Source: Gordius sp. MW1 (Eukaryota; Nematomorpha; Gordioida; Gordea; Gordiidae). From it: DNA of 64,000 nt. Location: the NCBI GenBank assembly GCA_964036665.1, contig OZ038531.1, positions 5,146,168-5,210,167 on the forward strand, read 5' to 3'. A program made the translations under genes and the position numbers. Below the pieces are notes generated by a model. That model did not search any database and had not been told where the DNA came from. It saw only the letters and a program-made list of their open reading frames with translations. Below, piece after piece: positions 49,139 to 55,768 of this stretch; positions within the stretch are counted from its first letter, which is position 1; the number at the start of each line of letters is the position of its first letter.

Positions 49139-49629
49139 CTTAAGACTAGAGATGCACCGATACCACTATTTTATGCCGATACCGATACCAGCCGATACTT
49201 AAGATTTTTTTGCCGATACCGATACCATGCCGACAGGCGCGTAGCCAGGGTTTTCTCCGGGGGGGGGGGGAAAAATTTCCAAAAATTTTTTTTGGGGGGG
49301 GGGGGGAAAATTTCCAAAAATTTTTTATAACATTTTTATTTCAACATTAAAATTATAAAATTTGGTATAAAACATAAAGAAAGTCATGATAAATAATTTA
49401 ATATTTTCTTTTTCCCAGCGTCATCTGTGTTGAAGCTTAAATATATATTGTTGAAACTCCGATTACAAAAACACGAAAAGACTAAACTAAATAACTAAGA
49501 GCGATTTTGTGTATATAGGGTAAGATCGCGTGATGGTGGGGTGATACGCGTGATGTTGATTAGAATTTGAATACGACCGCGCAGTATGCAGTTTATAACA
49601 TCTCCTACCCCTTAAGTTATTCCATATCT

Positions 49630-50335
49630 TTCTATAGGTTTTCGGATTCGTGTAGATCGCCGGACCGTCCCAAAAATGCCCTCTACTTAAGTCCTCACTT
49701 TCAAAATGAGGTTATATCGATTTGTAATGACCTAATTGTTAAAAAAAAAATAGTCAATCAAATAAACAAATCTCCCTTCTTCACAATTCTTTGTGATGAA
49801 TCTGGGATTTAACAAATGTCCATGTGTGCTCGATATATTGACTCTTCTACATTAACAATAAAAGAAGATTTTTTACAGTTTGTGATACGACTGGAAGAGG
49901 GCTAGGCGACTTAATTATAAAGAGCATAAAAGGTCTTAATATAAATATAAATTTGTTAAGAGGTCAGGGATATGATGGAGCCAGAAATATGAGTTGAAAT
50001 GTTGTCAGAAATTTAAGATAAATCAAATAAAGAGAAATTGAAGCAAGCTGGTATGATCACGATGTTGCAACAGAAGCTGCAACTTCAAAGCACTTAGATC
50101 TTCAGCAAGTTAGACAATTAGCAGAAACTTTAGTATTAGTAGTCGAACCTAAGGCTAAGTTGTATGATTTTGAACTTAAGAAACAAGTTTTAGCAAATTT
50201 TTAAATAATATTACCTCTGAATCTTGCCAGAAACGCGAATGAAAATAAATTATAGAAGGATTTCGTCCAACTCTTCTTTACCTATTAGCTTTTATATAAG
50301 AAATACTATGTCAAAAAATAGATGAAATAGATTGG
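49630..50335 (+). pseudogene. Rearranged inverted fragment of the hAT transposase
   Basis: The plus strand repeats pieces of the minus-strand transposase below: ..KNALYLSPHFQNEVISICND.. (49672 on), a VNQINKSPFF..CDES block and a stretch ending gatatgatggagccagaaatatgag; then disjoint bits that match the middle and C-terminal parts (gatcacgatgttgcaacagaagc, cttagatcttcagcaagttag, gaaatactatgtcaaaaaatag). Large deletions and frameshifts break it. The A/T-rich flank at 49330-49425 also duplicates the transposase 3' end at 50340-50425. It looks like a damaged copy captured next to the main gene. Confidence 0.85.
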
Positions 50336-50386
50336 CCCTTTTTATAACATTTTCCTTTCAACATTAAAATTAAATAAAGAAAGTTA

Positions 50387-52626
50387 TTATAAAATAATTT
50401 TATATTTCCCTTTTCCCAGCGAAAATATCTCAAGAACTTCATCTGGAGTGGGAGCTAATTCCCGATGAATCGCTAAAAGGGCCAATCCATTTAATCTATT
50501 TTTCGACATAGTATTTCTTATATACGTTTTAAGCCTCCTCAATGTTGAGAAACTTCTTTCATTGGTGCATGTAGTGATAGGAAGACAAGCTAACAGGTAA
50601 AGAAGAGTTGTGATGTTGGGTAAAGATTCCAATATTTTATAACCTGATAGGGCGTCCAAGGAATTCTTTGGACGAAACTTTTCTGACGTCTGAGACAACG
50701 CCATATACCAGATGTTGAATTCTGCTATGAGATCTTCATTAGTCCCTTGGAGATCATTGGAATAAAACTCCCATAGAAAGTTTATTTTCATCCGCGTTTC
50801 TGGCGAAACAATCAAAGAATTTGAAGGAAATAATATTTGGAAATTTCCCAAAACTTGTTTCTTGTCCACGAACCGTTCATTGAGTTGTAGAATGAACATA
50901 TCGAGCAAAGGTATAAAAATAGTTATTTTGTAATAATCCTCAATGGATTCAGTTAAAATATTACTTCGACAAGTTTGCTTCTTTGCATATCGAGGTTTCT
51001 TAAGGTCAAAATCATACAACTTAGCCTTAGCTTCGGCTACTAAAAAAATTTCCCGAAACTCTTCATCAACGTTGTTTCTTATTAATTTCATTTGATTTAC
51101 TAAAGCTTCGGCTAACTGTGTGACTTGCTGTAGATCTAGGTCCTTTTTTTGCAATTGCTTGCATAATAAGGACGTATAGCCAAAGAGTTTATTTAGGCAT
51201 AGAAGGGAAATAATAAATTCACTTTGTCGTAATGCAGTGAGCAAAGTTGCAGCTTCTGTTGCAGCATCGTGATCATACCATGTAGATATCTTTTCCAATG
51301 CTGGATATATGGCATCTTGAAGCAAAATGTGTGTGGAAACAGCTTCGTGCCGTGATGCCCAACGGGTGACACACACTTGCTTTAATTTCTCTATATTGGG
51401 TTTATCTTCCATTTCTGACAACATTTCAATTAAAACTTGATGACGTTTAGAATATTTAAACAGATCATATACTTTGGAAACAATACCCATGCAATTCCGT
51501 ATAGTAGGAAGGGTACAGGCATCTGAAAGTGCCAAATTTAATGAATGTGAAGCACAATGTACATACAATGCCGTTGGGTATGTTTTCAAAATATAGGCCT
51601 GGACGCCGTTGAATTTTCCACTCATATTTCTGGCTCCATCATATCCCTGACCTCTTAACAAATTTATATTTATATTAAAATCTTTTATGCTCTTTATAAT
51701 TAAGTCGCCTAGCCCTCTTCCAGTCGTATCATAAACTGGCACAAACTGTAAAAAATCTTCTTTCATTGTTAATGTAGAAGAGTCAATATATCGAGCACAC
51801 AGGGACATTTGTTGAATCCCTGATATATCAGTAGATTCATCACAAAGAATTGTGAAGAAGGGAGATTTGTTTATTTGATTGACTATTTTTTTAACAATTA
51901 GGTCATTACAAATCGATATAACCTCATTTTGAAAGTGAGGACTTAAGTAAAGGGCATTTTTGGGGGGATTTTTCAAATAATCAAAAAGTAGTGGGTCACC
52001 ATTAGCACGGTACCTTAAAATAGCCCTAAAATTGCCATCATTATTATCATGCACATCTAAATCAAGCGCTCCAGAGTCTTTGTGGCCTCTTAATGCCAAT
52101 CCTTAAATTCCCAAGGCCAAAATCGCTTCAATGATTGGAGCTAACTTTCTACGATTTTCTTCAGCCTGAATTTTTCTTTGTGTATCCAACTGATTAATGA
52201 CGCAAAGATTTTTCCCGGTTCTAATTTGTGTTAAAGATAAAATTGTTTTCAATGAACCCACGTGATATAAATTCCTTTGGTGAATATTAAAACATTCACT
52301 AGCATCCTTCCATCTTCGAAATGGCTTGGCAACTAGAGCCTTTAGCTTTTGGTTTCCATTTATTCCACCAAATCTTGGACCAAAAAGTACACATGCTTTG
52401 CAAAATGCCCCGTTTTCCTTTGGGGAAAATGCGAGCCAGCTCCATCTCTGGAACCAGGAGTGTTGAAATTTAAGTTTTTTAGATAAAGCATCCCGAGGAA
52501 AATTGAACGAAATAGGAGGTTGGTAAATCTTATCATGTAACGATAGCTTATCATCTTCCTCCTCAATATTTTGATTATTTAAATATAAACATATGTCATA
52601 GGGATAGGGGAATGGGTCACTTGAAT
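50387..52626 (-). CDS. hAT transposase main exon with one in-frame stop
   Basis: After acceptor ttttag (52628-52627) the frame runs 173 codons through the TTF finger to TAA at 52105-52103, then continues 571 codons in the same frame to the stop at 50387. Sequence reads on without a frameshift (..ILALGI stop GLALRGHKD..), so a single base change is the likeliest cause. In the downstream part, counted from its first codon at 52099, the family's acidic residues are near D87, D154 and E514. Confidence 0.9.
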
Positions 52627-54867
52627 CTAAAATAATTAATTTTATTTAAAAAAATTAAATTAGAAAATCAACTCTACATTAATTTAAAGATAAAGAATAT
52701 GTATAATTAAAACTTATTATACCTTTGGTTAATGAAGGTATAGGTACAATTTCTTTATCTTTGTTTACACTTCTTCCTGCAATTAAAAATTTAACAAAAT
52801 TTAATTCAATACAAAATTTGAAATAACAGTTATATTTAAAATTCAAAATTAGATTAAAAACATTAATCTATTTTTTTTTACCTAAACTCGAATTATCACT
52901 TTCAGACTCAATATCTAATCGACCCACTTCACTATTTTTTTTTTTAAATGCTGCAATAAAAATTTTAAAATGAGTATTAAAACGTTTAACTTATTGACAA
53001 TATTTAAATATTTTATTTAGGCTTAAAATTTCACCTTCATAAGGTCCTATAACTGGTTCATCGTCTTCTTCAAAATCTCTTGTTTTTTTTCTTCGATTCC
53101 CTTCAATCAAAAAATTCAAATATAATTTAAAAACTTTGAAATAAATGTTATATTTAAAATTATAAACATTAATTTATTTTACCTAAACTTGAAACTTCGT
53201 CAACTTCTATCGATTCAAACTCCTCCACTGTTTCATTAGTAACAATCTTTTTATTATTTCTTTCATTTGCTAAATAGATTTTTAATAATAAATATGAACT
53301 AAATCTTGAATGTCATAAAAACATAAAACATGTTGAGCTAATACACTCCCTCCACAAAAACAAAAATAAAGTTAAGTAATATAAAAAATAAATTCAATAT
53401 TAATTTAATTTATTTTACCTAAACTTGAAACTTTGTCAACTTCTATCAATTTAAACTCCTCCACTGATTTATTAGTAACAATCTTTTTATTATTTCTTTC
53501 ATTTGCTAAATAAATTTTTAATAATAAATATGAAATAAATCTTGAATGTCATAAAAACATAAAACATGTTGAGCTAATACACTCCCTCCACAAAAACAAA
53601 AATAAACTTGAAATTTCGTCAACTTCTATCGAGTCAAACTCCTCCACTGATTCATTAGTAACAATCTTTTTATTATTTCTTTCATTTGCTAAATAAATTT
53701 TTAATAATAAATATGAAATAAATCTTGAATGTCATAAAAACATAAAACATGTTGAGCTAATACACTCCCTCCACAAAAACAAAAATAAAGTTAAGTAATA
53801 TAAAAAATAAATTCAACATTAATTTAATTTATTTTACCTAAACTTGAAACTTTGTCAACTTCTATCAATTTAAACTCCTCCACTGATTTATTAGTAACAA
53901 TCTTTTTATTATTTCTTTCATTTGCTAAATAAATTTTTAATAATAAATATGAAATAAATCTTGAATGTCATAAAAACATAAAACATGTTGAGCTAATACA
54001 CTCCCTCCACAAAAACAAAAATAAAGTTAAGTAATATAAAAAATAAATTCAACATTAATTTAATTTATTTTACCTAAACTTGAAACTTTGTCAACTTCTA
54101 TCAATTTAAACTCCTCCACTGATTTATTAGTAACAATCTTTTTATTATTTCTTTCATTTGCTAAATAAATTTTTAATAATAAATATGAAATAAATCTTGA
54201 ATGTCATAAAAACATAAAACATGTTGAGCTAATACACTCCCTCCACAAAAACAAAAATAAAGTTAAGTAATATAAAAAATAAATTCAACATTAATTTAAT
54301 TTATTTTACCTAAACTTGAAACTTTGTCAACTTCTATCAATTTAAACTCCTCCACTGATTTATTAGTAACAATCTTTTTATTATTTCTTTCATTTGCTAA
54401 ATAAATTTTTAATAATAAATATGAAATAAATCTTGAATGTCATAAAAACATAAAACATGTTGAGCTAATACACTCCCTCCACAAAAACAATAATAAAGTT
54501 AAGTAATATAAAAAATAAATTCAACATTAATTTAATTTATTTTACCTAAACTTGAAACTTTGTCAACTTCTATCAATTCAAACTCCTCCACTGATTTATT
54601 AGTAACAATCTTTTTATTATTTCTTTCATTTGCTAAATAAATTGTTAATATAAATATATATTATAAAATAAACCTCAACTTAAAAAATCCATGGTATATA
54701 TATGATATGATGTTGAACACAAATAAGAGAGACATTTAGATATTATATTAAGTTAAGAAAAAAAGGTCAGAAAAATAATAATTTTTTAATATTATTTTAT
54801 ATTAATAAAAAAAATTAAAAGATGAAGTTTACTTACTGAGTTTTGTAAAGAAATTACGAATATCCAT
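50387..54867 (-). CDS. hAT transposase gene (TTF zinc finger, hAT dimerisation type)
   Basis: Cut-and-paste DNA transposase of the kind often annotated as 'zinc finger MYM-type protein 1-like'. Spliced exons (minus): 54867-54837 (MDIRNFFTKL), up to seven 87-bp repeated exons (53183-54632), 53100-53035, 52950-52882, 52776-52723 and 52626-50387. All are GT-AG with the same 1/2 phase. The last exon has a TTF-type finger (..WFQRWSWL ... FCKACVLF), catalytic-type aspartates in TILCDESTD and GYDGARNMSG, HCASHSLNLAL, CVTRWASRHEAV, and the C-terminal dimerisation block with TNERSFSTLRRL. One in-frame TAA (52105-52103) splits the finger from the catalytic core, so this copy is probably inactive unless the stop is an assembly or allele error. 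Confidence 0.88.
53181..54650 (-). repeat. Tandem 236-bp repeat array carrying a repeated 87-bp exon
   Basis: Seven copies, starting at 53181, 53417, about 53600, 53836, 54072, 54308 and 54544. Spacing is exactly 236 bp except around the third copy, which lost about 53 bp including its splice donor. Each intact copy, on the minus strand, has an acceptor (tttatttag), an 87-bp exon (53183-53269, 53419-53505, 53838-53924, 54074-54160, 54310-54396, 54546-54632) and a donor (TTTAG|GTAAAA). The exon is symmetric (2 + 28 codons + 1), so copies can be joined or skipped in frame. The peptide is NERNNKKIVTN then SVEEF and IEVD, ending SSL. Copies 1 and 3 are more acidic, the others more lysine-rich. 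No copy has a stop or frameshift. Confidence 0.9.
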
Positions 54868-55768
54868 AATTTGAATTTTGAATTGGGTGGGAATGAAAAC
54901 GAATGTATGAAGGAAAGGAACTAACACAAACGCTACCACTTATCTCAATATTTAATTATTATATAATTTAAATTTGCGTCAAAAGGTCGTGAAATAAAAT
55001 TTTCAACCAACATAAAACTTAATTTCAATTAGGGGGGAGCGAAACACTAATTTTTTCCAATTTTTACAAAAAAAAATCCGGGGGGGGGGGAATTTCCCGT
55101 TTCCCCCCCCCCCCCCTGTCTACGCCACTGCATGCCGATACTTATAATAAAAAAAATTTTTATACTAAAAAATATATGCAAATTAAATATTATAAATTAA
55201 GTCACATCCAAATTTTGGTAGATCAAAATTTTGACGATAAAACAATTGTAATTATAATTTATAATATAATATTAATTTATAATAATAAATTTTGTTATTA
55301 ATTAATTCAAAAGTATTGTGATTAATAGATCAAAAAAGAATTTAAATTTTATTATGGTACACTTTATATTTTATTAATACATAAATTTATTTTATAACTG
55401 CTGACACAACAAAATAACTCCATAGTGTATCTAAAGAATCCATCTAAGGCTTAATATATAATAATTTTTAAAATAAAACAATATTTACTTAAAAGCGCAG
55501 TTATTCGGAACAGATGGTCAATGAGTTTATTATACTCCACATAGAAATATTTATAGCCAATCAAATGAAACAATTTTCAAAAAATTTAAAAAGTCCTCTA
55601 TTTTTTAATGGTACGAGATACTATAAATATTATTTTTTGAGTTTCATATTGAAAAAGGTATCGGCTTGGTAATTGCCGATACTAGCAAAGTATCGGGCCG
55701 ATTCTTTTGGCAAGGTATCGGCGCGATACCATGCCGATACTTGGTATCGGTGCATCTCTACTTAAGAC

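Follow-up and report, generated by a model that had tools for sequence, protein, structure and literature searches.

Introduction

Variation of repeat number within the transposase of a hAT transposon is already known from hobo, and exon duplication is already known from cellular genes, in which symmetric exons can be duplicated in tandem without loss of the reading frame. Schistosome micro-exon genes are strings of small symmetric exons that are freely skippable. The internal tandem repeats of transposons can seed satellites, an example being Tetris of Drosophila virilis. We analyzed a stretch of 64,000 nucleotides of Gordius sp. MW1 (contig OZ038531.1, positions 5,146,168 to 5,210,167; hereafter the window), in which a hAT element carries a tandem array of putative exons in its transposase gene. 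The window element and hobo presumably belong to different hAT branches. Compared with exon duplication in cellular genes, the array described here resides in a mobile element, and its 5 to 11 units change between near-identical copies. The micro-exon genes of schistosomes hold diverse tiny exons of secreted proteins, whereas here a single transposase exon is multiplied. As with Tetris-type repeats, the array grows inside a mobile element, and one locus (L016) resembles a mobile satellite; unlike those repeats, the unit contains an exon with predicted splice sites.

The number of TPE repeats of hobo was reported to vary between Drosophila populations, from three to nine, and a higher rate of transposition was reported for copies with three repeats than for copies with five (PMC4807377). 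The window element is like hobo in having a variable number of tandem repeats within the reading frame of a hAT transposase, but the hobo unit is 9 bp within one reading frame, whereas the window unit is an exon plus an intron, 236 bp in all. In one open-access library, with the terms used and at the level of titles and the openings of abstracts, we found no report of a whole phase-symmetric exon multiplied in a transposon or a transposase gene.

Results

The window element carries seven tandem exon-intron units

A hAT element was delimited on the minus strand of the window. It is flanked by an exact 8-bp target site duplication, and its terminal inverted repeats (CAGTGGCGTAGAC / GGCTACGCGCCTG) are short and imperfect. 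The downstream piece of its transposase matched the hAT C-terminal dimerisation region (PF05699, E 1.7e-9) and DUF4371 (E 3e-21) in Pfam. The earlier note had named a TTF finger, for which the 180-aa upstream piece gave no Pfam match; a Cys/His pattern was noticed by eye only. The window copy itself is probably non-functional, because its main transposase exon contains a stop codon. The features, in the order in which the minus strand is read, are as follows.

55131..55138, no strand: 8-bp target site duplication CATGCCGA, at the 5' side of the element
49234..55130, minus strand: hAT element of 5,897 bp with the ends CAGTGGCGTAGAC...GGCTACGCGCCTG, flanked on each side by the 8-bp duplication
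54837..54867, minus strand: exon 1, MDIRNFFTKL plus 1 base, donor GTAAGT
54546..54632, minus strand: X unit 1, first-unit type (FELIEVDKV)
54310..54396, minus strand: X unit 2, K type
54074..54160, minus strand: X unit 3, K type
53838..53924, minus strand: X unit 4, K type
53602..53688, minus strand: X unit 5, acidic D type, lacking its donor in a unit shortened by 53 bp
53419..53505, minus strand: X unit 6, K type
53183..53269, minus strand: X unit 7, acidic last-unit type
53035..53100, minus strand: mini exon Y, 66 bp, phase 1-1
52882..52950, minus strand: mini exon X2, 69 bp, phase 1-1
52723..52776, minus strand: mini exon Y2, 54 bp, phase 1-1, containing the junction between L026-like and L031-like sequence
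50387..52626, minus strand: main transposase exon (DUF4371, hAT dimerisation), broken in the window copy by a stop at 52103-52105
49226..49233, no strand: 8-bp target site duplication CATGCCGA (plus-strand letters), at the 3' side of the element

Each X unit is an 87-bp exon-like segment followed by a 149-bp intron. The seven units follow one another at steps of 236 bp, with one step of 183 bp, and the array was independently detected by TRF. An earlier note on this DNA had described six intact units and a damaged one, all of them free of stops and frameshifts, between exons of matching phase. Six of the seven units indeed have what characterizes tandem exon duplication, namely a complete exon with an AG acceptor, a GT donor and symmetric phase; none of the seven contains a stop or a frameshift; and the flanking exons (54867-54837 and 53100-53035) are both in the matching phase 1. 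The note had also distinguished two peptide variants, one acidic and one lysine-rich. Variants do exist, but there are more than two, the first transcribed unit being a third type (E19, net charge -1). The two acidic types have a net charge of -5, and the type called lysine-rich is nearly neutral, at +1.

A further repeat, and a possible second one, were observed in and around the element. About 350 bp of the transposase exon (51615-51964) recur near the 3' end of the element (49669-49999) with 91% identity, and GATACC/GGTATCGG motifs, possibly another repeat, adjoin the insertion site (49200-49233 and 55131-55200).

Unit number varies among near-identical copies of the element

The genome searched (212 Mb in 12 contigs) contained at least 31 matches to the array. 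Twenty loci were fetched, which hold 29 of the 31 array matches listed and 124 units, 116 of them of the window's family. Among these 116 units the acceptor AG is present in 115 and the donor GT in 113. The copies are young, so that the kept splice sites of the window family are no sign of constraint. The earlier note had proposed a comparison of the array with other copies of the element, and this revealed that unit number does vary: the ten full-length copies carry 5, 6, 6, 7, 7, 8, 8, 9, 9 and 11 units. Over 1.4-1.9 kb beside the array the nine other full-length copies are 98.8-99.8% identical to the window copy, yet they span this range, and therefore unit number changes fast relative to sequence. 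Exact 8-bp duplications flank the window copy and eight of the nine further full-length copies (9/10); in L013 the two flanks differ and the target duplication is inexact. Five shorter copies are also flanked by exact 8-bp duplications, L016, L020 (at its outer 5' end), L022, L025 and L027.

The two ends of the array are conserved in type. The first-unit type opens the array in nine of the ten full-length copies, the exception (L015) starting on a K unit; shuffling the unit order 20,000 times never gave nine first places. The acidic last-unit type closes the array in nine of ten, the exception being L018, in which a frameshift disrupts the last unit. L022 and L024 have truncated last units, and in L026, a locus of a second family described below, both the first and the last unit are frameshifted. 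We infer that growth happens inside the array, between the kept first and last types.

Locus L016 (C8:7060000-7069500, minus strand) holds an element of 4,575 bp with an exact 8-bp duplication, 88% of which is array; its 17 units display a recurring five-unit pattern and leave no room for a transposase. This element resembles a mobile satellite in the making. A free satellite was not recognised among the fetched loci, all of which, except L021, have exon 1 or the 5' end beside the array.

Locus L020 (C7:13881500-13889500) has two 5' ends and one 3' end, and the inner 5' end lies within array intron sequence. This arrangement suggests a nested insertion or recombination between arrays.

Variation in exon segments and introns among units

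Sequence variants were counted in 96 of the 116 window-family units, after exclusion of those at the array end, which no further unit follows, and of those with an unusual length. Six common variants (present in at least 10 units) fall in the exon, and all six change an amino acid, compared with two in the intron; the rare variants number 13 in the exon and 29 in the intron. The common and rare variants are distributed differently between exon and intron at a Fisher p of 0.041, the units not being independent, and a comparison per site gave p 0.054 for common and p 0.48 for rare variants. Among the 19 exon variants there are three stops and one synonymous change; the synonymous deficit, against an expected fraction of 0.19-0.20, has a p of 0.09. 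With the units not independent, the exon variants hint at a diversification in charge. Purifying selection in the form of lower exon diversity was not found within the family (exon 2.9%, intron 1.0%), nor between families (exon 6.2%, intron 2.9%). The 96 aligned units contain no exon indel, and their introns do carry indels.

When the predicted exons of 11 copies were joined, the frame of L010 (seven units) was open for 1,022 aa, that of L011 (nine units) stayed open over all 824 aa that the fetched sequence covers, and the remaining nine ran into a stop. The length of X2 is 69 bp in five of the copies, 68 bp in another five and 66 bp in L011; the 68-bp form has lost one base in an A-run, which shifts the frame if X2 is included and the run was called correctly. 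L010, L011, L014, L015 and L017 have an uninterrupted frame of 752 aa in the region of the main exon. In these five copies 39 of 39 units are intact, compared with 36 of 40 in the other six, a difference that is not significant (p 0.12).

Related elements carry mini exons, and the window element is composite

The region upstream of a related main exon was retrieved for twelve relatives. Three of them have several copies of a mini exon other than X, two in L029, two in L030 and three in L031; TRF found no repeat in L029. Read from the nearest acceptor, three of these seven copies are in frame (2/2 in L030, 1/3 in L031 and 0/2 in L029). A single mini exon was recognised by pattern in L032, L033, L048 (with a changed donor), L049, L051 and L054, and by eye in L052 and L053, giving eight relatives with one; none was recognised in L050. 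The single mini exons that were measured have a length divisible by 3, that of L051 with one of its two possible donors. Exon 1 ends in phase 1 in all ten relatives in which it was recognised by pattern (L029-L033, L048, L049, L051, L052 and L054).

A second family, represented by L021 and L026, has X units spaced 222-227 bp apart, followed by Y, X2 and Y2. Its main exon differs, with 35% identity to the window copy over 114 aa. Both loci are damaged, exon 1 of L026 included. A further X-like exon (X0) follows exon 1 in L026 and is also present in L034 and L035. An X0-like exon is partly repeated in tandem in L037 (319-452, period 63), and in L021 and L036 a separate minisatellite with the motif GGCCAATGG lies near second-family sequences (period 106-129 bp in L036).

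The introns that follow the array and X2 are homologous (their score was reached by 0 of 500 shuffles), and the intron-plus-Y of the window matches the intron-plus-Y2 of L026 with 75% identity over 145 bp (E 8e-22). These two matches mark the X-Y pair as an older duplicated module. Within the window sequence alone, exon X against X2 (298/500 shuffles reached the score), exon Y against Y2 (279/500) and the intron after Y against the intron after Y2 (363/500) gave no significant similarity.

Between the array's end and 52752 the window copy is 94-95% like L026 and L021, and from 52766 onward it is 86-88% like L029-L031. The change from one family to the other lies within mini exon Y2, at about 52752-52766. 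These similarities make the window element a chimera, in which the 5' part belongs to one hAT family (L026-like) and the 3' part to another (L031-like). Its 3' end resembles, by eye, one in L033.

Discussion

We consider it probable that phase-symmetric putative exons were multiplied by unequal exchange in the transposase gene of a hAT element. Small phase 1-1 exons, placed between a short exon 1 (MDIRNFF...) and a large exon for the catalytic body, would code for the N-terminal region. Since the N-terminal introns share one phase, such mini exons can be duplicated, lost or skipped in frame. The mini exon X (87 bp with its 149-bp intron) would have been multiplied in tandem, its number shifting by unequal exchange or slippage; near-identical units of 236 bp invite unequal exchange, which would produce arrays of changing length between kept ends. 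Spliced in, the units would place a tail of 29-aa repeats between the N-terminal motif and the body of the transposase. That exchange is the mechanism behind the change in unit number is what we infer, and the recent unequal crossing-over that the earlier note had offered as an alternative fits the data well. Counting against the exon reading are the nine of 11 joined frames that run into a stop, the five copies whose X2 is one base short, the three stops among the exon variants, exon substitutions that are no rarer than those of the intron, and the multiplied mini exons of L029-L031, of which three in seven are in frame. Growth of the array is most likely to be mainly tolerated, and an effect of tail length and charge on transposition possibly takes a minority share within this reading.

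The latter case, in which unit number and charge type would be selected because they tune the activity of the transposase, we regard as rather unlikely. The six common exon variants, all of them amino-acid changing, against two in the intron point in its direction (p 0.041; per site p 0.054), as do the single synonymous change among 19 exon variants and the kept first and last unit types. Against it, the tests are marginal (synonymous deficit p 0.09), with units that are not independent and last units excluded, and insertion with target duplications, inexact in the case of L013, is seen in copies across the whole range of 5 to 11 units. Tuning by tail length is made plausible by hobo, in which the number of coding repeats is reported to affect activity, three TPE repeats reportedly outmoving five (PMC4807377).

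The array could instead be an intronic minisatellite in which the first segment to be duplicated held the exon, most units now being skipped or silent and the protein unaffected by their number. This is unlikely, although several observations agree with it: the copies are young, with splice sites and frame kept about as age alone predicts, exon substitutions are not reduced relative to the intron, stops are present in some copies, and in the relatives only three of the seven multiplied mini exons are in frame. It accounts less well for the 96 aligned units in which indels occur in introns and never in the exon, for the phase 1-1 mini exons that surround the array, and for the joined frame of L010, whose 1,022 aa include all seven units.

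A role of the array in cis as DNA, for instance as subterminal repeats bound by the transposase or as a silencing signal, is very improbable. The array does start ~500 bp from the 5' end, it is partly retained in internally deleted copies, and it makes up 88% of L016. However, the two-unit copies L025 and L027 carry exact target duplications, so that a long array is not needed for movement, and no 12-mer of the unit occurs in the 3' kilobase, while the number of shorter words that the two share is close to that shared with a coding stretch. An assembly artefact has next to no chance of being the explanation and can be dismissed as far as the existence of the array goes. Mis-assembly of tandem repeats does happen, and exact unit counts could still be off, but ten full-length copies have arrays of different length at sites with duplications of their own, the second family has an array with another unit length, and the presence of the array in copies that sit elsewhere between exact 8-bp duplications speaks against a local error of assembly.

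Multiplication of putative exons by unequal exchange, the reading we prefer, can be extended into a more specific and rather doubtful proposal, that of an adjustable tether. Duplicable phase 1-1 mini exons would link an N-terminal FF motif to the transposase body; units would multiply in tandem (X in the window family, a different one in L029-L031), become diverse in charge and be swapped between families as modules, with the result that copies of a single element would keep producing transposases whose tails vary in length.

If the preferred reading is true, a DNA transposon could lengthen or shorten its transposase one step at a time without losing the frame. The window element demonstrates recombination of two hAT families inside a mini exon. 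The near-identical elements of this genome, which differ mainly in unit number, form a natural series that would serve as material for testing tail length against transposition.
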